DNA from: Sphingopyxis sp. OPL5
GTDB taxonomy: Bacteria; Pseudomonadota; Alphaproteobacteria; Sphingomonadales; Sphingomonadaceae
Direction of reading: 5' to 3'
Assembly: GCF_003797775.2 (NCBI RefSeq)
Contig: NZ_CP060725.1
Location: 1,792,001 to 1,856,000 of the forward strand
DNA length: 64,000 bases
Below are positions 3,114-19,419 of the stretch, piece after piece. The translations under genes and the position numbers were made by a program. Below the pieces are notes generated by a model, which saw nothing but the letters and a program-made list of their open reading frames with translations, made no database searches and was not told the DNA's origin. Position 1 is the stretch's first letter. Each line of letters starts with the position of its first letter.

Positions 3114-6100
3114 TCAAAAGCCGAACGCCACCCCGACCCGCCCGCCGGTCGATCCCTTGACCGTCGACCCGGCGATGCCGCCGCTGACATAGACGCGCGG
3201 GGCAAGCCGGACCACTGCGGCGCCCGAGAAGCCCTGTTCGCCGCGATAGGTCGCGAGGTTGAACGAGACCGAGACGTCGCTGTCGGGGACGATCATCGTG
3301 CCGCCCATCGCCATCGCGGTCGCGATGCCGCCGCTCGCCTGCACCGCATGGCGTTCGAGCACCAGCGTGCGCTGGTCGAGCGCCGCGGTCTGCTGTTCGA
3401 GCAGGTTGACCCGGTTCGGCAGCCCGCCGAGCGTCGCGATGTCGAGCGCCGAGGTGCCGAGATTGCCCGCCGCATCGGTGGTCAGCAGCCTGAGCGTGCC
3501 GCTCTGCGCCGCATTGCTCGCCGCCGACCCGACGCCCGAGAGGGTGTAGGTGCTCGCCGAATTGCCGAGCGCGACCTGCCCCGCGCGGCTCGCGACCGCG
3601 CCATTGCCGATCGCCACCGACCCGTCGCCGGTCGCGCTGCTGGCATTGCCCAGCGCCACCGCCCCGGTGCCGATCGCGCTGTTGTTCGCACCCAGCGCCA
3701 CCGCGCCGGTCCCAGTCGCGATGTTCGGATCGCCGATCGCCACCGCGCCATTGCCCGATGCGACATTGCCCGCGCCGATCGCCACCGCCTGGCCGTTGAT
3801 CGCGCGGGCATTGGCGCCCATCGCGACCGACTGGTTGCCGCTGGCGACCGAACCCGGCCCGACCGCGATCGCGTCGACCCCCGTCGCCTGCGGCCCCGGT
3901 CCGGTGCTGTTGGCGCGGAAATAGGCGCCGTTGGCGAGCGCGGTGTTCGCGGTGCTCTGCGCTGCCGCCGCTTCCGATCGCGCCGTCGTCGCCGTCAGCT
4001 GCGCCGCCGCAGCTTCGGTGCGCGCGGTGGTGGCGGTCGCCTGCGCTACCCCGGCATTGGCGAAGGCGGCGTCGGCGCGGTCCTGCGCGGTCGCGGCATT
4101 GGCGCGCGCCGTGTCGGCCTGCGCCTGCGCCGCCGCCGCCTCGGTCCGCGCGGTATCCGCGGTCGCCTGGGCCGTCGCCACTGCGACACCATTCGCCTGC
4201 CCCGCTGCGAGCGCCTGATCGGCGGTCGCCTGCGCCGCATCGGCGTTGGCGAAGGCGGCGTCGGCGCGGGTCTGCGCCGCCGCGGCTTCAAGCCGCGCGG
4301 TATCGGCCGTACCCTGTGCCGCCGCCGCTTCGAGCCGTGCGGTGTTCGCCGTCCCCTGCGCCGTCGCGGCGTTGACCAGCGCCGTGTTGGCGGTGCCCTG
4401 CGCCGCGATCGCCGCATTTTGCGCGGTGGCGGCATTGGCGAGCGCGGTGTTCGCGGTGCCTTGCGCGGCGTTCGCGCTCGATTGGGCGGTCGCCGCATTG
4501 GCGAGAGCGCTGTTGGCCGTGCCCTGTGCAGCATCCGCCGACCCCTGTGCCGTGGCGGCGTTGGCGAGCGCGGTATCGGCGGTGCTCTGCGCCGCCGCCG
4601 CCGAAACCGCGTTGGCCGCATTGCCGGCCAGCGCAGCATCTGCCGTCGTCTGTGCCGTCGCCGCATTGGCGAGCGCACTATTGGCGGTGCCTTGCGCGGC
4701 TGCCGCGTCGGCCACCGCTGTATTGGCGGTCGTTTGCGCGCTGGCGGCCGCGGTCTGCGCCGCTGCGGCATTGGCAATGGCGGTATCCGCCGTCCCCTGC
4801 GCCGTCGCGGCATTGGCGAGCGCGGTATCGGCCGTCGCCTGCGCCGCATTCAGCTGGTCGAGATTGACCGCGTCGGTGCCGGCGGTGCCCGCCGCGACAT
4901 TGGTGATCGCGCGCTCCGCCCCGGTCGTGCCGACCGAGACGCTATTCTCGCGATTGGCGATCGAGCCCGAACCGAGCGCAACGCTGCCGATCGCCTGCGC
5001 CTTGGCGTCGCCGCCCAGCGCATAGCTGTTGGCGGCCGAGGCGATCGCGAAATCGCCGATCGCGACGCTGTTGGTCCCGCTCGCGTCGGCGCGCCGTCCG
5101 ATCGCGGTCGAGAATTGCCCGCTCGCGGTGCTGAGCTGGCCGATCGCGGTGCTGAAACCGCCGGTCGATTCGGCCCCGGCGCCGAGCGCGACGCTGCCGC
5201 CCAGCGTCGCTTTCGCTTCGTCGCCGATCGCAACGTTGCCGGTCGACGACGCCTCGGCCTGATCGCCCAGCGCGATCGCGCTCTCGCCATTGGCGACGCT
5301 GAGGTTGCCGAGCGCAATCGCGCCCGTGCCCGTCGCTGTATTGTCGGCACCGATCGCCACCGCGCCGGTGCCGGTCGCGGTGTTCGGATCGCCGATCGCC
5401 ACCGCACCGTCGCCCGAGGCGATATTGCCCGTTCCGACCGAGGTCGCCTTGCCGTCCTTGGCAATCGCTCCGGCACCGATCGCCGTCGCTCCGTCGCTGA
5501 GCGCCTGCGCTGCGGCGCCGCTGCTGTTGAAGGCGACATAGGGATTGGCGCCGGCTGCCACACCCGCCAGACCCGCGTTGAGCTGGCCCAGGTTGACCGC
5601 ATCGGTCGCCGCGGTCGCGGCGCCGACATTGGCGACGATGCGCTCGTTCCCCGCCGCGCCCACCGACACCGTGTTGGCGCGGTCGGCGACCGAGAAGCTG
5701 CCCAGCGCCACGCTATTCAGCGCGGTGGCCTGGGCATCGCTGCCCAAGGCGGTCGACAAATCGCTGCTCGCCAGGCTGTCGCGCCCCAGCGCCGTGCTTT
5801 GGAACCCCTGGGCGCGGGCGAAGGTGCCCGTGGCGGTCGCGCCCTCCGCGCTGGCTTGGGAGATGAAGCCGGTTGCCGTGGCGTCCATCGCCGATGCCGT
5901 GCTGCCGGCTCCGGTTGCGGTCGATTGCAGGCCGGTCGCGTGCGCGAAGTCGCCGGTGGCGGTGCTGCGTCCGCCTGCTGCCTCGGTGAAACTGCCCGTT
6001 GCCGTCGAAAAGACGCCGCTGGCCAGCGAACCGACGCCGGTGGCGCTGCTGTTGTCGCCATTGGCCTGCGCGCCGACGCCGGTCGCGGTGCTGTTGAGCC

Positions 6101-8339
6101 CGGTCGCACGGCTGAGATTGCCCGTCGTCGTCGACCCGATCCCGCTGGCGATGCTGTCGCGGCCCGTCGCGGTGGCGCGCTCGGCGGTCGCCTGGGCGAA
6201 GGTGCCGGTGGCGGTCGCGCCGACCCCCGACGCGACGCTGACGAAGCCGGTGGCGGTGGCATCCATCATCGTTGCCTGGCTGCCCGCACCGCTCGCGGTC
6301 GATTGCAGTGCCGTCGCGTGCGCAAAATCGCCGGTCGCGGTGCTGCGGCCTCCCGAAGCCTCGGTAAAGCTGCCCGTCGCGGTCGAAAATGCTCCGCTGG
6401 CCAGCGCGCCCGAACCCGTGGCGCTGCTGCTCTCCGCCATCGCCTGCGCGCCGATGCCGGTCGCGGTGCTGTTCAGTCCAGTCGCGCGGCTCAGGTTGCC
6501 CGTCGTCGTCGACCCCACCCCGCTTGCGATCGAATCGCGGCCCGTGGCGGTGCTGCGCTCGCCGCTTGCTTCGGCGAAGGTACCCGTCGCGGTCGCGCCG
6601 ATCCCCGTCGCGCGCGCACCCCAGCCGAGCGCAACCGCATCCATGGCGGCGGCGCGGCTGAAGGCGCCGATCGCGATGGCATGCGCGGCGGTCGCGCGGC
6701 TGTCGGGGCCGATCGCGATCGTTTCGGCCGCCGTCGCCTGCGAAAGCCCGCCGATCGCGACATTGCCGTCCGACGAAGCCGCTGCCTGGTCACCCACCGC
6801 GATCGCCGAATTGCCCGTCGCGCTGCTCAGATTGCCGAGCGCGATAGCGGCGGTGCCAGTCGCCGTATTGTCCGCGCCGATCGCCACCGCGCCGGTGCCA
6901 GTCGCCGTGTTCGGATCGCCGATCGCCACCGCGCCATCGCCCGAGGCGACATTTTCAAACCCGATCGAGGTTGCCTTGCCATCCTTGGCCACCGCGCCCG
7001 ATCCGATAGCGGTCGACCCGTCGGCCTGCGCCTGCGCGCCGCCGCCGGCGGCGAAGCTGTCGTCGCCCATCGCCTGCGCCGCCGATCCGCCGCCACCCAC
7101 ACCGACATAGGGGTTGCTGCCCGCCACGACCCCCGCGATGGCAGCGTCGAGCTGCGCCACATTGACCCCATCGGTCGCGGCGGTCCCGGCGGCAAGATTG
7201 GTCAGCTGGCGTTCGCCGCCCGCCGTGCCGATCGACACGCTGTCGGTCCGATCGGCGAGCGAACCGCGACCGAGCGCGACGCTGTTGACGCCGGTCGCAT
7301 TGGCAAAGACGCCGACCGCCGTCGCATCGTCGGCGCTGGCGACCGAATAGGCGCCCAGCGCGCTCGATTCCTCGGCGGTCGCCTGTGCGCCCGTCCCGAT
7401 GGCGGTCGCGTTGAGATTGCCGGTGGCGCGCGCGCTGGTGCCGAGGGCGGTGCCCTGGTTGCCCGCCCCCGCGCCGCTGCCGACCGCCACCGCGTTCAAA
7501 AAGGCGAGCGAATCATAGCCCGTCGCCACCGAGTTGAAGCCCGACAGCGCATTGGCGCCGACCGACGTCGATTGCTGCCGGGTTTTGGTGTTGAACCCGA
7601 TCGCGGTCGAATTCTCGCCCTCCGCCGACGCGATGGCGCCCAGCGACGTGGCATTTTCCGAGATCGCCTGCGCGCCGGTCCCCACCGCCGTGGCGTTGAG
7701 ATTGCCCGTCGCGCGCGCGTTGGTGCCGATGGCCGTGCCCTGGTTGCCCGCCCCCGCGCCGCTGCCGACCGCCACGGCGTTCAGGAAGGCCAGCGAATCA
7801 TATCCGGTCGCGACCGAGTTGAAGCCCGACAGCGCATTGGCGCCGACCGATGTCGATTGCTGGCGCGTCTTGGTGTTGAACCCAATCGCGGTCGAATTCT
7901 CGCCCTCGGCCGATGCGATTCCGCCCAGCGCGGTGGCATTTTCCGACACGGCCTGCGCGCCGGTCCCCACCGCGGTGGCGTTGAGATTGCCGGTGGCGCG
8001 CGCGTTGGTGCCGATGGCGGTGCCCTGGTTGCCCGCTCCCGCGCCGGCGCCGACCGCCACGGCATTCAGGAAGGCCAGCGAATTATAGCCCGTCGCGACC
8101 GAGTTGAAGCCCGAGAGCGCGCCGCTGCCGATCGAGGTCGATTGCTGGCGGGTCGCGGTATTGGCACCGACAGCGGTCGAATCCTCGCCATCGGCTTCCG
8201 CATTGATGCCGCATTCGGTCGCATTGAGCGCGGACCCGCTGTTGCACTCGGGCGTCGGGTCGGCATGCGCCGGCATCGCCAGCGACAGAGCGAGCGCCGC
8301 GGGGGCGGCGGTGAAAAGCAGCTTGGTGGTCTTGCGCAT
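3114..8339 (-). CDS. Trimeric autotransporter adhesin (YadA/Hep-Hag type)
   Basis: A 1741-residue type Vc autotransporter. A signal peptide (MRKTTKLLFTAAPAALALS... cut after PAHA) precedes a very long head of short left-handed beta-roll repeats such as STAIG, SVATG and NAVAVG. Two neck-like motifs in the head (TDGVNVAQLD, TDAVNLGQLN) and a third (TDAVNLDQLN) at the head-stalk junction are followed by an Ala/Thr-rich coiled-coil stalk of ~14-residue repeats. A second short head and a YadA-type membrane anchor close it, ending in VGVAFGF. The anchor trimerises in the outer membrane. The start at 8339 has AGGGG upstream and directly precedes the signal peptide; the frame is open to 8594 but that extension has no signal sequence. 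The response regulator at 8700 is divergent and may control it (inference). Confidence 0.93.
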   Translation of the reverse strand: MRKTTKLLFTAAPAALALSLAMPAHADPTPECNSGSALNATECGINAEADGEDSTAVGANTATRQQSTSIGSGALSGFNSVATGYNSLAFLNAVAVGAGAGAGNQGTAIGTNARATGNLNATAVGTGAQAVSENATALGGIASAEGENSTAIGFNTKTRQQSTSVGANALSGFNSVATGYDSLAFLNAVAVGSGAGAGNQGTAIGTNARATGNLNATAVGTGAQAISENATSLGAIASAEGENSTAIGFNTKTRQQSTSVGANALSGFNSVATGYDSLAFLNAVAVGSGAGAGNQGTALGTSARATGNLNATAIGTGAQATAEESSALGAYSVASADDATAVGVFANATGVNSVALGRGSLADRTDSVSIGTAGGERQLTNLAAGTAATDGVNVAQLDAAIAGVVAGSNPYVGVGGGGSAAQAMGDDSFAAGGGAQAQADGSTAIGSGAVAKDGKATSIGFENVASGDGAVAIGDPNTATGTGAVAIGADNTATGTAAIALGNLSSATGNSAIAVGDQAAASSDGNVAIGGLSQATAAETIAIGPDSRATAAHAIAIGAFSRAAAMDAVALGWGARATGIGATATGTFAEASGERSTATGRDSIASGVGSTTTGNLSRATGLNSTATGIGAQAMAESSSATGSGALASGAFSTATGSFTEASGGRSTATGDFAHATALQSTASGAGSQATMMDATATGFVSVASGVGATATGTFAQATAERATATGRDSIASGIGSTTTGNLSRATGLNSTATGVGAQANGDNSSATGVGSLASGVFSTATGSFTEAAGGRSTATGDFAHATGLQSTATGAGSTASAMDATATGFISQASAEGATATGTFARAQGFQSTALGRDSLASSDLSTALGSDAQATALNSVALGSFSVADRANTVSVGAAGNERIVANVGAATAATDAVNLGQLNAGLAGVAAGANPYVAFNSSGAAAQALSDGATAIGAGAIAKDGKATSVGTGNIASGDGAVAIGDPNTATGTGAVAIGADNTATGTGAIALGNLSVANGESAIALGDQAEASSTGNVAIGDEAKATLGGSVALGAGAESTGGFSTAIGQLSTASGQFSTAIGRRADASGTNSVAIGDFAIASAANSYALGGDAKAQAIGSVALGSGSIANRENSVSVGTTGAERAITNVAAGTAGTDAVNLDQLNAAQATADTALANAATAQGTADTAIANAAAAQTAAASAQTTANTAVADAAAAQGTANSALANAATAQTTADAALAGNAANAVSAAAAQSTADTALANAATAQGSADAAQGTANSALANAATAQSSANAAQGTANTALANAATAQNAAIAAQGTANTALVNAATAQGTANTARLEAAAAQGTADTARLEAAAAQTRADAAFANADAAQATADQALAAGQANGVAVATAQATADTARTEAAAAQAQADTARANAATAQDRADAAFANAGVAQATATTARTEAAAAQLTATTARSEAAAAQSTANTALANGAYFRANSTGPGPQATGVDAIAVGPGSVASGNQSVAMGANARAINGQAVAIGAGNVASGNGAVAIGDPNIATGTGAVALGANNSAIGTGAVALGNASSATGDGSVAIGNGAVASRAGQVALGNSASTYTLSGVGSAASNAAQSGTLRLLTTDAAGNLGTSALDIATLGGLPNRVNLLEQQTAALDQRTLVLERHAVQASGGIATAMAMGGTMIVPDSDVSVSFNLATYRGEQGFSGAAVVRLAPRVYVSGGIAGSTVKGSTGGRVGVAFGF
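5847..6602 (-). repeat. 378-bp direct repeat pair in the adhesin head
   Basis: Two adjacent copies of a 126-residue block. The CCCGTCGTCGTCGAC anchor is at 6121 and 6499, 378 bp apart. The encoded blocks share SIASG.GSTTTGNLSRATG and STATGSFTEA but have diverged more than the 285-bp units, suggesting an older duplication. Confidence 0.8.
7380..8160 (-). repeat. 285-bp direct repeats in the adhesin head
   Basis: Three consecutive copies (the last partial) of a 285-bp, 95-residue unit. The anchor GAGTTGAAGC recurs exactly at 7531, 7816 and 8101. Each unit encodes TRQQSTS...FNSVATGY...NAVAVG...GTA, with only a few substitutions between copies. Such near-identical repeats can recombine, so copy number may vary between strains or be mis-assembled. 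Confidence 0.85.
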
Positions 8340-8699
8340 CGGTAATCCCCTAGTCCTCGCCGCGCGGAGGCGGCTGCGATGAAAAACGCGACCTGGGGCT
8401 TCGCTCGTGCGGCGCAGATGTCCCCGCGTCAGCCGCTGGCGAACCCGCATCGGTCCGCCGCGCATGCTGTCATGGGGTAAGACGGGAAACGCCGGCCGAA
8501 CCGGACACGGCGACCGCAGAAAAATTTCCGATACCTGCCGGCGCGTCCCGATGGGCTCGCAAACGCCGGGCGCAGCGGTGGATAAAAGGACCAAAGCCGG
8601 ACGGATTGGCAGGGCCGCCGGGCGGCGGCATCGCCCTGAAGATTATTCGGGTTGCGGCCGGCCGCCGCCGTGGGGCATGCGCGTTCGACGCGCTTTGGA
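8340..8699. other. Divergent intergenic region between adhesin and response regulator
   Basis: About 360 bases with no convincing gene. ORFs crossing it are extensions or shadows. It must hold the promoters for the adhesin (minus) and the LuxR-type regulator (plus). I see no clear -35/-10 pair or strong palindrome that I would name as an operator. Confidence 0.5.
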
Positions 8700-11712: not shown

Positions 11713-12735
11713 CTAGGCGCTGACCACCTCGACCAGCGTCGCCCCGTCCTCGCACGAACGGAACCGGAAACCGCGTCCGACAAAGCGCGCGACGAGCGCC
11801 GCCGCGGTCAGCGTGTGCTGACTCACTTTCACCGTCGAAAACACGCCGTCCCCCGCCAGCGCGAACGGGAGCAGAAGCTGGTCCTGCAGATAGGGTCCCG
11901 CAAAGGCGTCGCAGGCGAGATAGCCGCCCATCCGCCGCGCGGCGGTCTTGGCAAGCCGCTCGGCCGGAACCCCAATCTTTCCGAATGCCGACATCACTTC
12001 GGTCACATGCTCGAACGCCGCCTCGAGGATCAGGGCATTCCCCGGCCCCTGCTCGGCGGGAAGCTGTCGGGTGGCGAAGGCGTCCTGCGGCCAGTCGGCC
12101 AGCGTCTTGGCCGCGGTCTTGAGTTCGCGATCGCCGACGTCGAACGGAATGCCAGCAAGGATCGCGGTCGCGCCGACGCGGCGCAAGTCGCCGCGCGCCA
12201 GGCACGCGATCGGGCGCAGCGGCGCCGGCACGATGTCGACCTCGATCCGCCCGCCGCCGCGCGGGAAAAAGCCGTGCCGCACCAGCCGCGCCGACACCGT
12301 CGGGCCCATGCGGTTGATGACCGGCAGCAACGTGCGCTCGAGAAATTCGAACGGCGGCGCCGCCATCGCATGCGTTCCGCCCTCGATCACGAGGCGCGAC
12401 GGTGCATCGGCGAGCATCAGCGGCACCAGGATCGTCTGGAGGACCAGCCCGGTGCTGCCCGCGGTGCCCACCGCGAAATGATAGTCGCCCGGCGTCACCC
12501 GGCCGGGACGAAAGGACAGGCTGTTCGATCCCACGGCCAGCCCGGTGCATTCGGCGCCGCCGATCACGCACGCGGCCTCGATCGCGGTCACATGCTGGCG
12601 CATCAACCCCGGCTTCTCGCGCCCGCCGCGAATATTCTCGATCGTGAAGGGCGTGCCCGTGAGCAACGCGAGCGCACACGCATAGCGCAGCACCTGCCCC
12701 CCGCCTTCGCCTTCCGATCCGTCGATGATGATCAT
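11713..12735 (-). CDS. rtcA: RNA 3'-terminal phosphate cyclase RtcA
   Basis: A 340-residue RtcA enzyme that converts RNA 3'-phosphate to a 2',3'-cyclic phosphate via a covalent His-AMP. The N-terminus MIIIDGSEGEGGGQVLRYA and the segment GGREKPGLMRQH are family signatures, and the length matches the family. The ATG overlaps the stop of the RlaP gene (ATGA at 12732-12735), so translation is coupled. It is the last gene of the sigma-54-driven RNA-repair operon and would prepare ends that RtcB can join. Confidence 0.96.
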   Translation of the reverse strand: MIIIDGSEGEGGGQVLRYACALALLTGTPFTIENIRGGREKPGLMRQHVTAIEAACVIGGAECTGLAVGSNSLSFRPGRVTPGDYHFAVGTAGSTGLVLQTILVPLMLADAPSRLVIEGGTHAMAAPPFEFLERTLLPVINRMGPTVSARLVRHGFFPRGGGRIEVDIVPAPLRPIACLARGDLRRVGATAILAGIPFDVGDRELKTAAKTLADWPQDAFATRQLPAEQGPGNALILEAAFEHVTEVMSAFGKIGVPAERLAKTAARRMGGYLACDAFAGPYLQDQLLLPFALAGDGVFSTVKVSQHTLTAAALVARFVGRGFRFRSCEDGATLVEVVSA

Positions 12736-13514
12736 GTGTCTTCTACCAATTCCAGAAACAGGTCGTTCGCCTCCGCCGCGAAGGCTTCGCTTGTCGGGCG
12801 CGCCGGCACCTCGTCCGCACGCCCCAGTTCGTCGGCGATCAGCGCGTCGATCTCGGGCAAGCGCGCGATAGGTCCGGCCTCGCGCGTATCCGCCTTCATC
12901 GCCACCAGCCGCTCGATCTCGCCCGCCAGCGAAGCGGGAAGGTCGGCCTCGGCCATCAATTGCTGCAATTGCATCGGCGGCCGGCGCGACGGATCGCGCC
13001 GCAGCACGCGGATCGCCAGCGCCGGACGCAGCGCATAGAAATAGCGCTTCACCGCGACCTCGCTCTCGTCCTGCAGCCAGCGCGCGATCGCCGTACGCCC
13101 GAGTTTCGCATAGTGCAGCGCGAAGCCGTTGGGATCGAAATGCCGATCTTTCAGTTCCGCCATGCGCGCGACGAAGGGGTCGGGGTCGCGATACTCGATC
13201 GGCGATCCGATCCATTCGGACAGGACCGAATTGTTGCGCAGCATCAGCCCCAGCGCCTTGCGGATGTCCCAGCCGTTGAGGTCGATCTCGTCGACGATCT
13301 CCCGCTCGATCACGTCGCGTACCGGGCTGAGCGCCAGATAGTCGCGGCGCGGCCGGACATAGAGGAAGCGCACGTCATAATCGCTGTCGGGCGACGGAAA
13401 GCCCCAGGCGCGCGACCCCGATTCGATCGCGAGCAACAGGCGCACGCCATCCTCCGCCTCGACGGCGGACAGGCGGTTTTCGATGTCTTGCCGGATGGCG
13501 GGTTCGATGCTCAT
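12732..13514 (-). CDS. RlaP-family nucleotidyltransferase (RNA-repair associated)
   Basis: A 260-residue polymerase-beta-superfamily nucleotidyltransferase. The core motif ESGSRAWGFPSPDSDYDVRF (Gly-Ser followed by Asp-x-Asp) is the metal and NTP site, and the rest fits the RlaP (PF10127) family known to travel with RtcB and RNA ligases. The role is presumably addition or repair of RNA ends, but the reaction is not established. The start ATG at 13514 has AGAAGAAG upstream and overlaps the preceding stop (ATGA). Its position between the Cys-rich protein gene and rtcA supports a function in the same pathway. Confidence 0.88.
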   Translation of the reverse strand: MSIEPAIRQDIENRLSAVEAEDGVRLLLAIESGSRAWGFPSPDSDYDVRFLYVRPRRDYLALSPVRDVIEREIVDEIDLNGWDIRKALGLMLRNNSVLSEWIGSPIEYRDPDPFVARMAELKDRHFDPNGFALHYAKLGRTAIARWLQDESEVAVKRYFYALRPALAIRVLRRDPSRRPPMQLQQLMAEADLPASLAGEIERLVAMKADTREAGPIARLPEIDALIADELGRADEVPARPTSEAFAAEANDLFLELVEDT

Positions 13515-13927
13515 CGTTCTTCTTCTATCCAGTTCGTCTTCGCCGGATCGGGCACGAACAAATGCGGTGTCCAGCAATCGGTGCGCAGCGTGCCCACCTC
13601 CCTCCCACACCGACAGGCTTGGTTAAGGCCGTTGCAGCCTGCAAGCCCGCAGCATCCGCCAAGACGGTCTCCGTTGCGCGTTTCACGCACGGCTTCGGTC
13701 AAATCGTCCGGATTCAGCCAATATTGCGGCACGAATTCGAGCAGCGCTGGCCGGCGAGCAAAGGACCGTTCGATCGGTTCCCAGCTTTTGTACGCGATCC
13801 CGCGCGCGATAAGCGGCTTGCCGGGCTCCTGCTCGGGCGCAACGACGCCGGGCTCCTTGCTCGACACGAGCGTCAGCGCGGGCGTCAGGCGCGCCTTGCA
13901 GGCGCCGCAGCACAAGATCTTGTTCAC
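13511..13927 (-). CDS. Cys-rich small protein of the RNA-repair operon, function unknown
   Basis: A 138-residue protein I do not recognise. It opens MNKILCCGACKARLTPALTL, a CxxC-type knuckle, and later has GDRLGGCCGLAGCNGLNQAC followed by RCGREVGTLRTDCW. At least nine Cys in two clusters suggest a zinc-binding fold. The middle has WEPIERSF and EFVPQYWLNPDDL. The start is GTG with GGGAG upstream, 33 nt after rtcB, and its stop overlaps the RlaP start by 4 nt. It is certainly co-expressed with the repair enzymes and could be an RNA-binding adaptor (inference). Confidence 0.8.
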   Translation of the reverse strand: MNKILCCGACKARLTPALTLVSSKEPGVVAPEQEPGKPLIARGIAYKSWEPIERSFARRPALLEFVPQYWLNPDDLTEAVRETRNGDRLGGCCGLAGCNGLNQACRCGREVGTLRTDCWTPHLFVPDPAKTNWIEEER

Positions 13928-13960
13928 GGTCTCCCCCCCCGGACGGCGGCGTGAAGGGGG

Positions 13961-15187
13961 TCACCCCTTCACGCACACCACCTGCTTCAGCGTATGGACG
14001 ATCTCGACGAGGTCGGCCTGCGCCGCCATCACCGCCTCGATCGGTTTGTACGCCTTGGGCGTTTCGTCGATCACGCCTTCGTCCTTGCGGCATTCGACCC
14101 CCGCGGTGTCGGCGATATGCTCGTCGAGCGTGACGAGCTTCTTCGCCGCGGTGCGGCTCATGACGCGGCCCGCGCCATGGCTGCAGCTATCGAACGACTC
14201 CGGATTGCCCAGCCCGCGCACGATGAACGATTTCGCGCCCATCGAACCCGGGATGATCCCCATCGTGCCTTTCGCCGCGCGCACGGCACCTTTTCTGGTG
14301 ACGAGGACATTCTCGCCGAAGTGATTCTCGCGCGTCACATAATTGTGATGGCAGTTCACCGCTTCGGCTTCGGCCTCGAAGGGCTTGGCGATCTGGCGCC
14401 GCAGCGCCGCGATCACATTCGCCATCATCATCCGCCGGTTCAGCGCCGCAAAGTCCTGCGCCCAGCCCACCGCCTCGACATAATCGTCGAAATGGTCGGT
14501 CCCTTCCGGGAAGTACGCCAGATCTTCGTCGGGCAGGTTGATGAACCATTTGCGCATGTCCTTCTTCGCCAGTTCGATGAAGTAGGTGCCGATCGCATTG
14601 CCGACGCCGCGCGACCCCGAATGGAGCATCACCCACACCCGCGCCTCGGTATCGAGGCACAGCTCGATGAAATGGTTTCCCGTCCCGAGCGTCCCCAGAT
14701 GCGTGAGGTTGTTGGTGTTCTTCAGCCGCGGATGCTTGGCGACGATATGGCCGAAACGCTCGGCGAGCGTCGCCCAGGCGTCGACGATCGCCGCCGGCGG
14801 ATCACCCCACGAACCGGTGTCGCGCTTGCCGCGCCCGACCGACCGGCCGTGCGGCACCGCCGCCTCGATCGCGCTGCGGATGCCCTCGAGCGTGTCGGGC
14901 AGGTCGTGCGCCATCAGCGTGGTGCGCGCCGCCATCATGCCGCAGCCGATGTCGACCCCGACCGCCGCCGGAATGACCGCGCCCTTGGTCGGGATCACCG
15001 ATCCGACGGTCGCGCCGATGCCGACGTGGACGTCGGGCATCGCCGCGACATGCTTGAACACGAACGGCATCTGCGCCGCCTTGCGAAGCTGCGCGCGCGC
15101 CATGTCCTCGACGGGCACGCCGCGGGTCCACATCTTGACCGGGCGTCCGCCCTCGACGTTCAGCACTTCATAAGTCGTCTGGGTCAT
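13961..15187 (-). CDS. rtcB: RNA-splicing ligase RtcB
   Basis: A 408-residue RtcB that joins RNA 2',3'-cyclic phosphate or 3'-phosphate ends to 5'-OH ends using GTP and Mn. Visible signatures are PDVHVGIGATVGSVIPT, VGVDIGCGM (metal-binding Asp/Cys), HSGSRGVGN, the metal-binding His in CHHNYVTREN, and SHGAGRVMSR with the conserved His of the GMP-binding site. A strong ribosome site (AAGGAGGT) sits 5 nt before the ATG, as expected for a gene that follows processed non-coding RNAs. A perfect 9-bp hairpin (GTGAAGGGG/CCCCTTCAC, 13951-13972) spans its stop codon. Confidence 0.97.
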   Translation of the reverse strand: MTQTTYEVLNVEGGRPVKMWTRGVPVEDMARAQLRKAAQMPFVFKHVAAMPDVHVGIGATVGSVIPTKGAVIPAAVGVDIGCGMMAARTTLMAHDLPDTLEGIRSAIEAAVPHGRSVGRGKRDTGSWGDPPAAIVDAWATLAERFGHIVAKHPRLKNTNNLTHLGTLGTGNHFIELCLDTEARVWVMLHSGSRGVGNAIGTYFIELAKKDMRKWFINLPDEDLAYFPEGTDHFDDYVEAVGWAQDFAALNRRMMMANVIAALRRQIAKPFEAEAEAVNCHHNYVTRENHFGENVLVTRKGAVRAAKGTMGIIPGSMGAKSFIVRGLGNPESFDSCSHGAGRVMSRTAAKKLVTLDEHIADTAGVECRKDEGVIDETPKAYKPIEAVMAAQADLVEIVHTLKQVVCVKG

Positions 15188-15219
15188 GGCTGACCTCCTT
15201 CTTTCATCATCTTCATGGT

Positions 15220-15347
15220 GCCGGCGACGAGGCGTGGCGAGACATTTTTCCTGAGCTACTCCGGCAAGCCGGGGGCGGACTTGAACCGCCGACCTTCCAC
15301 CCTGGGGTGGACGCTCTGACCCTGTAGTCCCGCCGGCATTCGCCGAC
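15220..15347 (-). ncRNA. Y-RNA-like RNA, unit 6 (tRNA-like, opened in the D-loop)
   Basis: Outer stem GTCGGCGA/TCGCCGGC (8 bp, one G-U) and the shared arms GAATGCCGG..GGACTACA and ATGTCTC..CTCGTCGCC. Inside, the order is D-stem 3' strand AGAGC, an anticodon-like hairpin TCCACC-CCAG-GGTGGA, AGGTC, a T-arm GGCGG-TTCAAGT-CCGCC (15274-15290), a CCGG-CTTG-CCGG mini-acceptor with closed tetraloop, then AGTAGCTC, whose GCTC can pair with the first GAGC. This is a tRNA fold circularly permuted so that its ends lie in the D-loop. The unit ends 33 nt before rtcB. Confidence 0.8.
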
Positions 15348-15358
15348 TTGTTCGAGGT

Positions 15359-15457
15359 GCTGGCGACGAGGATCTGGTGAGACATTCAAGCCAGCGCGTG
15401 AGCAAAGCCCCGCCAACTGGCCCCTCTTGGAATGTAGTCCCACCGGCATTCGCCAGC
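15359..15457 (-). ncRNA. Y-RNA-like RNA, unit 5 (no T-arm)
   Basis: Outer stem GCTGGCGA/TCGCCAGC (8 bp) with the same conserved arms as its neighbours. The 45-nt insert has no T-arm. It can fold through CAAG/CTTG and GCCAG/CTGGC. It looks like the stem-loop type of Y RNA that would bind the Ro protein without tRNA mimicry. Confidence 0.65.
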
Positions 15458-15468
15458 GTGAAGTGGGT

Positions 15469-15549
15469 GCCGACGGCGAGGGATTGGACGAGACATTGCC
15501 CCGCATGGGGCACCGTTGGAAGGTGTAGTCCCGTCCGGCATCCGCCGGC
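15469..15549 (-). ncRNA. Y-RNA-like RNA, unit 4 (minimal stem-loop)
   Basis: The shortest unit, 81 nt. Outer stem GCCGGCGG/CCGTCGGC contains one G-U pair. The conserved arms flank a 26-nt insert that is little more than a perfect hairpin GCCCC-ATGC-GGGGC. No T-arm or D-arm is present. Confidence 0.65.
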
Positions 15550-15555
15550 CGATAA

Positions 15556-15715
15556 GGATCTCGCAGCGACGAGAGATGGTGAGACGCGGCCCTTAAGCTA
15601 CATGGCAAGGCGGGATTCGAACCCGCATCTCCCAGAGGCCTTGCGGGTCCGGGCGCTTTACTCGTCGGGCCTTCATGGTGCCGATGTAGTCCCACCGGCA
15701 TTCGCTGCGATCTCC
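15556..15715 (-). ncRNA. Y-RNA-like RNA, unit 3 (tRNA-like)
   Basis: Outer stem TCGCAGCGA/TCGCTGCGA extended through tandem G-A mismatches into GGA/TCC. The insert has a canonical T-arm GCGGG-TTCGAAT-CCCGC (15610-15626), followed by TAGCTTAAGGG, whose GCTT can pair with AAGC near the 5' end of the insert (GAGTAAAGC). This again gives a D-stem split by the permutation. The segment between D and T arms is long enough for an anticodon arm plus an extended variable region. The acceptor stem is reduced or absent. Confidence 0.75.
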
Positions 15716-15735
15716 CTATCGAAATAGGTTGCGGG

Positions 15736-15865
15736 TCACGGCGACGAGAATCGGAAAAGACACGCCCGAAGGCTGATGCTCTACCTGGCTGAGCTACTGT
15801 CCGTTACCGGACAGGCGGGATTCGAACCCGCGACAGTCTGTAGTCCTTCCCGGCATTCGCCGTGA
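15736..15865 (-). ncRNA. Y-RNA-like RNA, unit 2 (tRNA-like, opened at the anticodon arm)
   Basis: Outer stem TCACGGCGA/TCGCCGTGA (9 bp). The insert begins GACTGTC (anticodon-stem 3' strand and variable loop), then T-arm GCGGG-TTCGAAT-CCCGC (15815-15831). A perfect 7-bp acceptor stem CTGTCCG-GTAA-CGGACAG follows (15797-15814), in which a GTAA tetraloop replaces the CCA end. Then come TAGCTCAGCCAGGTAGAGCA (bases 8-9 plus a complete D-arm) and CAGCC, pairing 4 of 5 with GACTG. The tRNA 3' half thus precedes its 5' half, joined through a closed acceptor stem. Confidence 0.82.
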
Positions 15866-15876
15866 TGTTCATGATG

Positions 15877-16008
15877 GGTCGTGGCGACGAGGATCGGCAA
15901 GACATTCTCGCCAGACGGGGGTCGAACCCGCTCGCAAGGATTGCTCCCTACGCATCCCCGATGGATCAAGCGCCTTGGAATGTAGTCCTGCCTGCATTCG
16001 CCACGACC
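15877..16008 (-). ncRNA. Y-RNA-like RNA, unit 1 (tRNA-like, long variable arm)
   Basis: First unit after rsr, starting 4 nt beyond its stop codon. Perfect 11-bp outer stem GGTCGTGGCGA/TCGCCACGACC. The insert has an AGGCGC D-stem strand, an anticodon-like hairpin ATCC/GGAT, a class-II-like variable arm AGGGA-GCAA-TCCTT, a T-arm GCGGG-TTCGACC-CCCGT (15915-15931) and a terminal TGGCGAG, whose GCG pairs with CGC near the 5' end. It resembles a permuted Ser/Leu-type tRNA lacking most of the acceptor stem. Confidence 0.78.
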
Positions 16009-16012
16009 TGTT

Positions 16013-17560
16013 TCATACCTCCGTTTCGTTGACGATCTCGACCCAGTCGCGCGTTTCGCCGGAAGCGAAGCGGGCCATCGCGTCAAAGACCGCGTCGGTG
16101 AAGCCACCGACATTCATGATGTCCTGCCGGTCCTTCGCCTGCGTGGTGCCATAGGGCTGGATGTCGATGCAGATCAGCTTCGCGCCCGGGTTGCGGGCCT
16201 TCAGCTTGTTCCACTCGATCATCGTCGCCGTGGCGCCGCGCCGGGTCGGGTCGATCCAGCTTTCGTTGTCGGACACGATCACCACCGTATCGACCTTCGC
16301 CCGCTCGGCATTCAGCCGGGCAAGCGGGGCCGACACATTGGTGCCGCCGCCGCCGATCGCCGCCAGCCGTGCCGCGTTGACCGCGACCCGCGCCTTGGGA
16401 TCAAGCGCCATGCCGACGACATCGACATCGAACGGCATCACCCGCGCCCGGCGGTTGGTACGCAGCACCGCCGCCGCGACCAGCGCCGCGATGTCGATGC
16501 AGCGGACGACCGAGGTCGCCCCCTTGCGGTATCCGGTCGCCGCCGAACTCATCGAGCCCGAGACGTCCGGACAGACCACGACATGGCCCGCCAGCACCGG
16601 AACCGTCGCGAGCGACAGCTCGAGCGCCTCTTCGAGCGCCGCCTGGACACGCAGCGGAACCGCCTCGCCGACCTGGCCCATCGCGACCATCAGCTGATAC
16701 GGCGCCGGGCGAACCCGGGCGATCGTATCGGCATCGGCCAGCCGCGACGCAACCTTGGCGGTCGCCCCCTTCACGTCGAACGCGCCGTTGCGCGCCAGCG
16801 TGTTGAGGTTCATGCGCAGCGCCTGCCAGCCCATGCGGCCCGCAAGCTCGGCCCACTGACCGGCGGTCAGCGGAAAGGCGGTCAGCCATTCGAACGGCAC
16901 CGGCGGCAACGCCCCTTTGGGGTCGCGCTTCCAGGCTTCGAACGCCGCGATCTCCGCCGGCAGCGCCGCGACATCATAGGGCTTGCCGATCAGCCAGCCG
17001 TAAAAGGCGCGGCGGTCGGCCGAAGCCGGCGCCGGATGGACTATGCGGACGATGTCGGCGAGGCTCGGGTCGTTACCCGTCGCCGCCGCCATCAACTGCG
17101 GCATCGAGGCCTTTTCCAGCCATTCGCGGACGAGCCGCTTCGGTCGCGAACCGAGCGAACGGCGGCCGACCTGGCCCGAACGCATGATCTGCACGAAGTT
17201 GCGCAACATGCGGCCATTGTCGATGACGCGGCCGAACACCGGGACCGCAAGGTCGGGATCGGCGACCGTCAGGTAAGCGGCGAGCAGCGCCGGCATATCC
17301 TTCATCGCGCCCGACTTGCGGGCATAGACCGCGGCCTTGGCGACGAAATCGGGCGACACCGCGCGCGCCGCCGACAGGACGTCGGCGAGCTGCGCGTCGG
17401 CGCCCGAATAGAAACCGTCCGACAGCGTGCCCGTTGCGGCAAGCTGCGCGAGCTTGGCCTCGGGGCCATAGGCATAGGCGGCCCCGCCGGCCTCGTTCAC
17501 CGCGTCGGTGCGCGGCAGGAAGCGGGAGAATGCCGCCGAAAAGAGGGTCTTGTTGGCCAT
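16013..17560 (-). CDS. rsr: Ro60-like TROVE-domain protein Rsr
   Basis: A 515-residue ring-type RNA-binding protein. The N-terminal two thirds form the TROVE HEAT-like repeat region. The C-terminal third is a von Willebrand A domain with an intact MIDAS motif DVSGS (in VVCPDVSGSMSS). Bacterial Ro proteins bind Y RNAs and, in Deinococcus, tether them to PNPase for structured-RNA decay. The start ATG at 17560 has AAGGAG 9 nt upstream and follows a ~95-nt leader from the sigma-54 promoter. The gene is directly followed by six Y-RNA-like units, the expected partners. First gene of the RNA-repair operon. Confidence 0.93.
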   Translation of the reverse strand: MANKTLFSAAFSRFLPRTDAVNEAGGAAYAYGPEAKLAQLAATGTLSDGFYSGADAQLADVLSAARAVSPDFVAKAAVYARKSGAMKDMPALLAAYLTVADPDLAVPVFGRVIDNGRMLRNFVQIMRSGQVGRRSLGSRPKRLVREWLEKASMPQLMAAATGNDPSLADIVRIVHPAPASADRRAFYGWLIGKPYDVAALPAEIAAFEAWKRDPKGALPPVPFEWLTAFPLTAGQWAELAGRMGWQALRMNLNTLARNGAFDVKGATAKVASRLADADTIARVRPAPYQLMVAMGQVGEAVPLRVQAALEEALELSLATVPVLAGHVVVCPDVSGSMSSAATGYRKGATSVVRCIDIAALVAAAVLRTNRRARVMPFDVDVVGMALDPKARVAVNAARLAAIGGGGTNVSAPLARLNAERAKVDTVVIVSDNESWIDPTRRGATATMIEWNKLKARNPGAKLICIDIQPYGTTQAKDRQDIMNVGGFTDAVFDAMARFASGETRDWVEIVNETEV

Positions 17561-17665
17561 CGTCCAACTCCTTCGAAATCTTGTCGGAGCCTGGGGGCGG
17601 CCGGCCCATTCCGGCCGCCCCTTGCTCCGCTGCTGCCGGGGACGTGAACCCGACGCCAACAGAAT

Positions 17666-17681
17666 TGCAGGAGGCGTGCCA
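17666..17681 (-). promoter_or_regulatory. Sigma-54 promoter of the RNA-repair operon
   Basis: The minus strand reads TGGCACG-CCTC-CTGCA, a near-perfect match to the -24/-12 consensus TGGCACGN4TTGC, with GG and GC 12 nt apart. Transcription would start near 17655, giving a ~95-nt leader before rsr. The AT-rich stretch 17690-17820 between this promoter and rtcR is where RtcR enhancer sites should lie; I cannot delimit them. Confidence 0.9.
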
Positions 17682-17823
17682 AATGCGCGGCAGACGAGAA
17701 ATATTCTCTCAAATATATGATTTTAAGCAATAATAAAAATTGGCGCTGCAAAGGCCAACATAGTGCACAATCGCAAATTCGATGATCTTGTATCGCCTCT
17801 TATAAATTTGTATAAATCCATCC

Positions 17824-19419
17824 ATGAAGCCCGTCACCGTCATCGGATTCCTCGGCTCGACCCTCGACGCCGCCAAGTTCGGCCCCTCGCGCTGGAACAA
17901 GTGGCGCCCGACGGTCAGCATCTGCATGCAGGAGGATCTGCGCGTCGACCGCTTCATCCTGCTCCACGGCAGCTACCACCGCCGCCTCGCCGAGTTCGTC
18001 ATGGACGACATCCGCGACGTCTCGCCCGAAACCGAAGTCGTGCCGCACCTGCTCGACTTCGACGACGCCTGGGATTTCGAGGAGGTCTATGGCAAGCTGC
18101 TCGACTTCGCGCGCGACTTTCCCTTCGATCCCGACACGCACGACTATCTGGTCCACATCACCACCGGCACGCATGTCGCGCAGATCTGCCTCTTCCTGCT
18201 CAGCGAGGCACGCTACCTGCCCGGCCGCCTGCTCCAGACCCAGCCGCAGCGCGGCGCGCCGCAGCCGGTCGGGACATGGAACGCCATCGACCTCGACCTG
18301 TCGCGTTATGATTCGATCGCGACGCGCTTCGCCGAGGCGAGCGCCGAGAGCACGAGTTTCCTGAAAAGCGGCATAGAAACGCGCAACCCCGCCTTCAACC
18401 GGATGATCGAGGAGATCGAACAGGTCGCGGTGCGCAGCCACGCGCCGATCCTCCTGATGGGGCCGACCGGCGCGGGCAAGAGCCAGCTCGCGCGCAAGAT
18501 CTACGAACTCAAGAAGCTGCGCCATCAGGTCAGCGGGCCGTTCGTCGAGGTCAATTGCGCGACGCTCAAGGGCGACAGCGCGATGTCGGCGCTGTTCGGC
18601 CACCGCAAGGGCGCCTTCACCGGCGCCGCGCAGGATCGCCCCGGCCTGCTCAGGAGCGCCGACGAGGGGCTGCTCTTCCTCGACGAGATCGGCGAACTCG
18701 GCCTCGACGAACAGGCGATGATCCTGCGCGCGATCGAGGAAGGGCGCTTCCTCCCCGTCGGCGCCGACAGCGAGGCGAAAAGCGACTTCCAGCTGATCGC
18801 GGGCACCAACCGCGACCTCGTCGGCGAGGTCGCAGCGGGCCGCTTTCGCGACGACCTGTTCGCGCGCCTCAACCTCTGGACCTTCGCGCTGCCCGGCCTC
18901 GCCGACCGGCGCGAGGATATCGCCCCCAATCTCGACTATGAACTCGAACGCTTTGCGCAGCGCGAGGGCTCGCGCGTCACCTTCAACAAGGAGGCGCGCG
19001 ATCGCTATCTCGCCTTCGCCGAGAGCGCGGCGGCGAAATGGCAGGGCAATTTCCGCGACCTCGCCGCCAGCGTCACCCGCATGGCGACGCTCAGCGATAC
19101 CGGACGGATCGACCGCGACGCGGTGGGGTTCGAAATCGCGCGGCTCGGCGCGACCTGGAGCGCCGAAACGCCGCCGGGCGACAGTCTCGCCCGGATCCTG
19201 ACCCGCGAAGAGCTCGCCGCGATCGATCCGTTCGACCGCGTCCAGCTCGCCTTCGTCGTCGAAGCGTGCCGCGGCGCCCGATCGCTGTCCGACGCCGGAC
19301 GCACCTTGTTCGCGGTCTCGCGGGAACAGCGGACCAGCACCAACGACGCCGACCGGCTGCGCAAATATCTGGCGCGCTTCGATCTGGACTGGGCGGCGGT
19401 TCGGTCGCCCGCCGCGTAA
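17824..19419 (+). CDS. rtcR: Sigma-54-dependent activator RtcR (CARF + AAA+)
   Basis: A 531-residue regulator. Residues ~1-180 form the CARF-like sensor (HITTGTHVAQICLFLLSEAR is typical of the family). The AAA+ domain has Walker A GPTGAGKS, the sigma-54 contact loop GAFTGA and Walker B LLFLDEIGEL. A helix-turn-helix ends the protein (SDAGRTLFAVSREQRTS). In Salmonella, RtcR senses tRNA fragments with cyclic-phosphate ends and switches on rsr-yrl-rtcBA (established knowledge). It is divergent from the operon whose sigma-54 promoter it must drive. The ribosome site is weak, consistent with low expression. Confidence 0.96.
   Translation: MKPVTVIGFLGSTLDAAKFGPSRWNKWRPTVSICMQEDLRVDRFILLHGSYHRRLAEFVMDDIRDVSPETEVVPHLLDFDDAWDFEEVYGKLLDFARDFPFDPDTHDYLVHITTGTHVAQICLFLLSEARYLPGRLLQTQPQRGAPQPVGTWNAIDLDLSRYDSIATRFAEASAESTSFLKSGIETRNPAFNRMIEEIEQVAVRSHAPILLMGPTGAGKSQLARKIYELKKLRHQVSGPFVEVNCATLKGDSAMSALFGHRKGAFTGAAQDRPGLLRSADEGLLFLDEIGELGLDEQAMILRAIEEGRFLPVGADSEAKSDFQLIAGTNRDLVGEVAAGRFRDDLFARLNLWTFALPGLADRREDIAPNLDYELERFAQREGSRVTFNKEARDRYLAFAESAAAKWQGNFRDLAASVTRMATLSDTGRIDRDAVGFEIARLGATWSAETPPGDSLARILTREELAAIDPFDRVQLAFVVEACRGARSLSDAGRTLFAVSREQRTSTNDADRLRKYLARFDLDWAAVRSPAA

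Follow-up and report, generated by a model that had tools for sequence, protein, structure and literature searches.

Among described systems, the Salmonella RNA-repair operon rsr-yrlBA-rtcBA is one of those closest to the locus examined here: control by rtcR and the order of rsr, Y RNAs, rtcB and rtcA are reported for it as well (PMC7790460). According to that report, transfer RNA (tRNA) fragments that arise from cleavage in the anticodon loop induce the operon, and RtcR binds 5′ fragments that bear a cyclic phosphate. Inhibition of nucleases by the Y RNA YrlA is raised there as a possibility only; the data did not address Rsr or the Y RNAs (PMC7790460). YrlA is described as resembling the D, T and acceptor arms of tRNA, as being modified by DusA and TruB, and as directing PNPase together with Rsr (PMC8394870). 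We analysed a window of 64,000 nucleotides (nt) from Sphingopyxis sp. OPL5 (assembly GCF_003797775.2, contig NZ_CP060725.1, positions 1,792,001 to 1,856,000), in which six Y RNA units, U1 to U6, lie between rsr and rtcB in the gene order rtcR-rsr-Y-rtcB-RlaP-rtcA. Salmonella has two named Y RNAs against six here, where RlaP also stands between rtcB and rtcA. Judging from their sequences, the inserts of U2, U6 and, by comparison with relatives, U3 appear to be permuted tRNA-like domains, a property that the first-pass annotation of this stretch overlooked. That such arrays hold a repertoire of permuted tRNA mimics we consider very likely. Our full reading, to which we give a probability of roughly 0.58, is that they encode an ordered set of Rsr-bound Y RNAs with permuted, capped tRNA pieces, which would act as decoys or adaptors for tRNA-directed enzymes.

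The six units share the Y scaffold. In every unit the outer stem closes on GCGA/TCGC (U4: GCGG/CCGTC); an AUGC element and an inner stem GG..GGAC/GUCU..CC, with 2 or 3 nt between GG and GGAC, come next, and then the insert. The Y RNA docking sequence in the basal stem (GCGAAUGC ... GUCGC) is present in all six, substituted on both sides in U4 (GCGGATGC, GCCGTCGG). The first-pass annotation had described six head-to-tail units of 81-160 nt on the operon strand, each beginning with GAATGC and ending with a TGTCT motif. Their number and the strand (minus) were right, but the sizes are 81-150 nt, U4 begins with GGATGC, and U3 has CGTCT at its end (the 3′ ends of U3 and U4 are CTCGTCGCTGC and CTCGCCGTCGGC). 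Its four quoted examples of outer stems are all present in the sequence, and "different inserts on one scaffold" proved a correct description. Its argument from covariation, namely that changes on one side of the stem are matched on the other, is upheld: the six nt outside GCGA/TCGC give 28 of 36 pairs with their own partners (G-U allowed), compared with a mean of 19.5 over all 720 re-pairings of the 3′ arms, two of which reach 28. Matched changes are also found in relatives, and the stems are conserved in related genomes, so that the claim is not refuted.

Assignment of the units to the Y RNAs adjoining rsr agrees with the docking stems and with the Rfam model of YrlA (RF02553), which matches U2 at 67.1 bits (expectation value E 3.5e-14) and, more weakly, U6 (31.7 bits), U5 (31.4 bits), U3 (27.6 bits, E 0.0087) and, in a search of the own genome, U1 (29.4 bits, E 4.8e-4). 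U4 was unmatched in both the local and the own-genome search. Five of the six units therefore match at E below 0.01, and none reaches the gathering score of 69 bits. No match to YrlB (RF02565), the short second Y RNA of enterobacteria, was found at E up to 1 within window positions 13000-19000.

Several other accounts of the array were rejected. Against a protein-coding array speak open reading frames (ORFs) that overlap on both strands and insert lengths that differ among relatives by non-multiples of three. The units are not ordinary tRNA genes either, as none is reported within the array by ARAGORN and the acceptor strands of U2 and U6 are joined by a loop. Recent identical duplication is excluded because the units differ. 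As for orphan copies elsewhere, a search of the whole genome (4.68 Mb) gives six copies of the exact 5′ pattern and four matches to the Rfam model at E up to 0.001, all of them inside the array, which leaves room for more diverged orphans.

T, acceptor and D arms like those of tRNA are recognised in the inserts of U2 and U6; U3 is a rewired form, U1 has a T arm only, and no such part was recognised in U4 and U5. We sorted the inserts of this array and of its relatives into classes A to E, setting tRNA opening points and the loop numbering 32-38 by analogy with tRNA. Class A has the published YrlA order of T arm, capped (loop-joined) acceptor and D arm. U2 follows it and adds a small UUCG-capped hairpin after the D arm, so by analogy it can be read as a tRNA whose opening lies 3′ of the anticodon arm. 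U6, of class C, runs from the 3′ strand of the D arm (D3′) through a short-capped anticodon stem, an AGGTC variable loop, a T arm and a capped acceptor to TAGCTCAG (D5′), and would correspond to a tRNA opened in the D loop. In class B the D stem is split (AAGC/GCTT), a further helix (GGYCC/GGRCC) and a GTCCGAC resembling a T loop are present, and an acceptor-like strand is located upstream, so that acceptor pairing would cross the D stem. Class B is probably pseudoknotted, including U3, whose insert looks like a D-loop-opened tRNA-like domain with the split D stem, a GGCCC/GGGCC helix and the acceptor-like strand on the 5′ side. Class D consists of the T arm and capped acceptor only, and class E has no T arm and no top half of a tRNA. 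U4, a class E unit without T or D arm, has a CACC-TTCCAAC-GGTG hairpin (7-nt loop, U33/A37) and a GCCCC/GGGGC hairpin. The insert of U1, which is kept in unit 1 of locus L099 and has a similar counterpart in unit 1 of L065, is by eye tentatively class-II or Ser-like.

Comparison with the tRNAs of the host supports the permuted reading of two units. U2 aligned circularly to tRNA-Arg(tct) scores 66, compared with 51 for the best linear alignment and a maximum of 36 in 60 shuffles; U6 aligned circularly to tRNA-Phe scores 50 over nearly its whole length, compared with 38 linearly and a shuffle maximum of 34. By eye, further class C D arms are GGTAGCGCG/TGGCGCAG in L161 and L164, which look Pro-like, and, in class C units with long variable arms, GGTAGACGC/TGGCGGA in L161, L163 and L164, presumably Leu-like. 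A tRNA-Glu-like D arm (GTCTAGCG...AGGAC), near the D arm of the host tRNA-Glu, was also seen in class A units (L099 unit 5, L052 unit 1 and L057 unit 4).

The relatives used for these comparisons are 80 named loci, found via the Rsr protein and ranking best among 99 confirmed; their hosts are mostly sphingomonads, with other Alphaproteobacteria and Pseudomonas. Units of up to 190 nt were detected by the 5′ motif and a pairing 3′ arm with a detector of our own design, and longer ones, which span two units, were removed before classes were counted, leaving 270 of 282. Among these 270 units, 120 were labelled A, 50 D, 47 B, 31 C and 17 E, with five unassigned; the labels contain some slips (e.g., L040 unit 4 and L057 unit 4). 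Outer-stem pairing over all loci (726 of 972 pairs, 486 when shuffled) is inflated, since the detector places the 3′ arm by that pairing, and is given no weight here. Within the available DNA, rtcB was found downstream of rsr in 77 of the 80 loci; of the three exceptions, L043 and L088 lie at contig ends.

Six units had been thought unusual, which the relatives contradict. At least three units are present in 63 of the 80 named loci (four units in 24 loci, three in 22, five in 14, six in 3, two in 6, one in 8 and none in 3). A sample of the phylum contained Rsr in 10 of 398 genomes, our own included, and its nine further loci have three to seven units each (seven in L164, six in L161; lower-scoring units by context in L163 and L161 were left out of the counts). 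Within the genus, Rsr was found in 8 of 60 genomes, our own again included and one partial. The Rsr/Y system is thus patchy, the array is the rule where the system occurs, and six units are at the upper end without being extreme.

The folds proposed for the classes were examined with RNAalifold, counting pairs that show one or more both-sided changes. Such pairs make up 14 of 24 in class A (42 rows), 17 of 35 in class C (31 rows) and 16 of 36 in class B (39 rows). For example, one D-stem pair of class A is C-G in 31 rows and U-A in 11, and one pair of the D-loop helix of class B is C-G in 21 and U-A in 16. The class A alignment held 42 of 45 units (two long-insert units and one near-duplicate were excluded), the class B alignment the window unit and 38 hand-picked units (47 carry the label), and the class C alignment the window unit and 30 others. 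When the arms of the class C anticodon stem are exchanged between units, own partners pair at 86%, compared with a mean of 74% and a maximum of 81% for shuffled partners (0 of 2000 as good). The pseudoknot of class B cannot be displayed by RNAalifold; its acceptor run measures 3.67 nt, longer than in any of 1000 shuffles (mean 3.01, maximum 3.36).

In many class A inserts, and in many short ones of class E, ACUAC is directly followed by a stem of 3-4 base pairs (bp) with a 7-nt loop. When 3 or more Watson-Crick pairs, U33 (loop position 2) and a purine at 37 (R37, loop position 6) are required, 58 of the 272 distinct inserts from the window and the 80 loci have such a hairpin, compared with a mean of 4.4 and a maximum of 11 in 200 dinucleotide shuffles of 24 nt. 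In eight of the further loci, 6 of 36 new inserts have it (shuffle mean 0.76, 1 of 2000 as high), and 5 of 33 without L162, whose units are like those of Pseudomonas L100 (again 1 of 2000); L159, whose units are those of L062, and a single overlapping false start within L161 were kept out of this test. By stem alone there are 63 hairpins, 52 of them with U33-A37, and the rarity of other Watson-Crick combinations at 33/37 indicates that U33-A37 is more than a longer stem. Exact identity to one of the 42 anticodon loops of the host genome is seen for 21 of the 63 loops, and for none as the reverse complement; against a set of 56 anticodon loops, 22 of 63 match (column shuffles: mean 9.0, maximum 17 of 2000). 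When the register is set by the loop motif alone, the arms pair at 65% with their own partner, compared with 35% when shuffled (maximum 57% of 2000; 18 distinct arm pairs). By analogy, the opening in these units would be between tRNA positions 26 and 27, and the anticodon would be retained.

The loops also vary on constant frames. Three Watson-Crick pairs close 52 of 66 motif-set loops of relatives, and these spell 18 triplets (GTC 12, TCC 8, GAT 7, GTT 4, GGT 3 and others, including two TCA, which would read a stop codon). The ATC...GAT scaffold (17 units) bears ten different loops and CGA...TCG (9 units) seven; the triplet changes while the frame stays. U2 and U6 have short caps at the place of the anticodon loop.

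Unit order shows preferences as well. The following figures are for the 63 named arrays with at least three units, and the shuffles behind them ignore kinship between genomes. Class B occurs in 45 arrays and is doubled in none (random mean 9.5, minimum 3 in 2000); in 43 arrays it is one of the first two units (random maximum 30). Class C is last in 19 of the 29 arrays that hold it (random maximum 15). In our window and in L099, class B is third and class C last. The tRNA-derived classes recur across genera in a preferred order. Turnover is visible within this frame: unit 5 of the window and unit 5 of L099 have near-identical docking flanks around unrelated inserts (99 and 144 nt). A separate observation is L037 unit 1 (from 7571), in which the anticodon-like 5′ hairpin of class A is joined to the 3′ half of class B, as if units recombine.

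How these RNAs might work can be sketched as follows. As the Salmonella results would predict, the rtc operon would be switched on when tRNAs break. The common stem would anchor each Y RNA to Rsr and leave exposed a surface shaped like a tRNA but lacking a free CCA end, with effector domains that may be whole tRNAs opened at different points, top-half minihelices or short anticodon-arm-like forms. Anticodon nucleases, the repair enzymes RtcA, RtcB and RlaP, or PNPase would be the targets, and the role that of decoy or adaptor. Class A, with different anticodon-like loops on fixed scaffolds, would be the varying part, and class B would be kept once per array. Ordered sets with anticodon-like loops suggest a stockpile of tRNA look-alikes for times of tRNA damage. 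We lean modestly towards control of tRNA damage as the purpose of the repertoire; a role as decoy or bait rather than adaptor is a tentative choice that we hold with less than even confidence. Expression, Rsr binding, the pseudoknot and every function of the units are here inferred from the DNA.

Several results weigh against this reading. Alignments of U1, U3, U4 and U5 to the host tRNAs give no score above shuffles (best 32 for U1, with a shuffle maximum of 34; 33 for U3 in plain alignment, with a maximum of 35). The window itself has one anticodon-like candidate, U4, whose stem is only 2 bp in its nearest relative, L099 unit 4, which makes the anticodon-like reading of U4 weak. Among the 58 hairpins there are a few unlike any anticodon loop, such as GTCAGGC in three class D units, and when distinct loops are counted, 8 of 34 match, no better than in column shuffles (mean 7.1). 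The anticodon-like hairpin, split by the MAFFT alignment, is missing from the RNAalifold structure of class A. None of the 31 rows shows a change in the class C D stem, so that its case rests on tRNA identity and on the further loci. Arm exchange is not significant for the class C T stem (357 of 2000 shuffles as good, with 3 arm types only), the class B D stem (996 of 2000, 4 arm types) or the class B D-loop helix (326 of 2000, 6 arm types). Presence of class A twice or more in 39 arrays is within the random range (mean 34.8), as is doubling of class C in 1 array (mean 4.6, minimum 0). The shuffle tests take no account of phylogeny. Finally, the RecA-dependent nuclease is reported not to have cut YrlA in Salmonella (PMC7790460).

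The best-surviving rival, in our view unlikely, holds that the units are interchangeable tethers, whose tRNA-like domains just recruit PNPase (as proposed for RYPER) or tRNA-modifying enzymes to Rsr and whose diversity is drift that a permissive scaffold allows. PNPase tethering is the described role of bacterial Y RNAs and YrlA is reported to be modified by DusA and TruB (PMC8394870), and 214 of the 272 inserts have no anticodon-like hairpin by our criterion. Yet tethering predicts neither U33/A37 loops that match those of the host, nor a single class B per array and a class order, nor class D and E units that lack parts of the tRNA. We place decoys or inhibitors of tRNA-cutting enzymes slightly above pure tethering, since varied anticodon loops are explained by the former only. 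A bolder form of the decoy reading, which we find doubtful as a whole, is a diversifying library of tRNA look-alikes on a Ro60-type ring, with uncleavable permuted whole- or half-tRNA mimics that are kept and anticodon loops that are swapped; triggered by the tRNA-damage sensor RtcR, it would supply decoys or bait for anticodon nucleases of phages, rivals or toxin-antitoxin systems.

It is improbable that the units are baits or sensors in the narrower sense that anticodon nucleases cut the loops of the Y RNAs, after which the cyclic-phosphate ends feed RtcR or RtcB reseals them: the 18 triplets spelled by the 52 loops of relatives would suit such a role, but class C units and U2 carry short caps in place of 7-nt loops, and in Salmonella YrlA fragments were undetected under damage (PMC7790460). 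Least probable of all is a neutral by-product, in which tRNA genes or fragments are repeatedly captured, permuted and left to decay with no role per class, for although unit number varies widely and unrelated inserts sit on near-identical flanks (unit 5 of the window and of L099), both-side changes in many helices, a class B that is never doubled, the kept class order, the capping of ends and the own-partner pairing of 3-bp anticodon-like stems all speak against it.

Coordinates of the units and of the surrounding operon are collected in Table 1. The stem of U1 (from 16008) adjoins the end of the rsr frame (16013), and rtcB starts at 15187 beyond U6. A divergent rtcR, rtcB and rtcA by Pfam, and a sigma-54-type promoter by sequence match only, identify the locus as an RtcR-controlled RNA-repair operon. 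At least one sigma-54 site with at most 1 mismatch is present in 28 of 100 shuffled windows, so that position and context carry the weight for the site at 17666-17682. Between RlaP and rtcB, a minus-strand ORF of 138 amino acids (aa) at 13511-13927 is cysteine-rich (GCCGLAGCNGLNQACRCG) and has no Pfam match at E up to 0.001; it is possibly an extra member of the repair operon. Farther away, a repetitive 1826-aa ORF on the minus strand (3114-8594) resembles by eye a trimeric autotransporter adhesin, and the long ORF opposite it is probably a shadow.

Table 1. Y RNA units of the Sphingopyxis array and neighbouring features (window positions)
Feature	Position	Strand	Remarks
U1	16008-15877	-	132 nt stem to stem; T-arm-like hairpin and long-variable-arm-like region
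U2	15865-15736	-	130 nt; class A, nearest to published YrlA
U3	15710-15561	-	150 nt; class B
U4	15549-15469	-	81 nt; class E
U5	15457-15359	-	99 nt; no tRNA-like part recognised
U6	15347-15220	-	128 nt; class C
rsr (Ro60-related protein)	16013..17560	-	Pfam vWA_Ro60 9.4e-15, TROVE 4.8e-5
rtcB RNA ligase	13961..15187	-	Pfam RtcB 2.2e-128
RlaP (RNA repair pathway, polymerase-beta family)	12732..13514	-	Pfam 3.9e-76
rtcA RNA 3'-terminal phosphate cyclase	11713..12687	-	Pfam RTC 1.8e-64
rtcR, divergent CARF/sigma-54 activator	17824..19419	+	Pfam RtcR 9e-81, Sigma54_activat 7.9e-50
Sigma-54-type promoter-like site TTGGCACG-N5-TGCA, upstream of rsr	17666..17682	-	sequence match, 0 mismatches

Rsr genes were also looked for in viral contigs, where a pattern scan matched 4 stretches, none of them confirmed. 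Myxococcus phage Mx1 encodes a full-length relative of Rsr (L168 5001-6650, 44% identity), with tRNA genes and a peptidyl-tRNA hydrolase nearby. No Y RNA was found near it by our detector or Rfam; by eye, a Y-like element (GGAATGCGGTGGGACGTACA ... CCTCCCACC) lies at about 7187-7262, between the phage Rsr and a tRNA-Gly. A short entry named Escherichia phage (L169, OR845705.1, 1748 bases) carries the terminal part of an Rsr gene together with three Y units, namely YrlB, YrlA and a further, Y-like one. It is probably bacterial DNA in a phage preparation; the enterobacterial Y region had no match in the E. coli collection.

Alphaproteobacteria are known for a permuted two-piece transfer-messenger RNA (tmRNA), whose tRNA-like domain has an altered connectivity. 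Our units share with it a rewired tRNA-like domain, but have no acceptor end and are part of a Y scaffold. Sub-threshold matches to the Rfam tmRNA model (RF00023) overlie some Y units of relatives (L041 7833-7981, L161, L099 and others), and probably arise via the shared T arm.

With YrlA (RF02553), the units share their position next to Rsr, the common basal stem and, in class A, the order T arm, acceptor hairpin, D arm, whereas classes B, C and D and the anticodon-like 5′ hairpin of many class A units are outside the Rfam consensus, and the arrays here and in relatives reach seven units. YrlB, like our short units, has no T or D arm; the copy in L169 (872-949, 105.5 bits) has ATC-TTTCCC-GAT after the docking stem, the frame of the sphingomonad ATC...GAT units of classes A and E, but with a 6-nt loop. 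Phage tRNAs, which have been proposed to escape host anticodon nucleases, also have anticodon loops that vary under tRNA attack (PMC10264068), but these are tRNAs encoded by phages, unlike the capped, permuted domains on a host Y scaffold described here. The scaffold, the operon and YrlA-type mimicry were already known; what goes beyond YrlA is a set of several tRNA-like forms, of which some have anticodon loops and the rest short caps, with no free acceptor end seen. Titles and abstract openings among the literature matches listed make no mention of D-loop-opened or pseudoknotted classes, of an ordered repertoire, or of bacterial Y RNAs with anticodon-like loops, which is no proof of absence; the main bacterial Y RNA papers are outside the coverage of that search.

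These arrays bear on what bacterial Y RNAs do beyond PNPase tethering and on why they are sited in tRNA-repair operons. If our reading is true, the family, which annotation pipelines currently miss because none of the six units reaches the Rfam threshold, would be available to them, and the arrays would provide new cases of a rewired tRNA fold, opened near 26/27, near 43/44 or in the D loop and in one class probably pseudoknotted. Each unit would then predict the tRNA it resembles and the enzymes it should bind, which would make the function of these RNAs testable.

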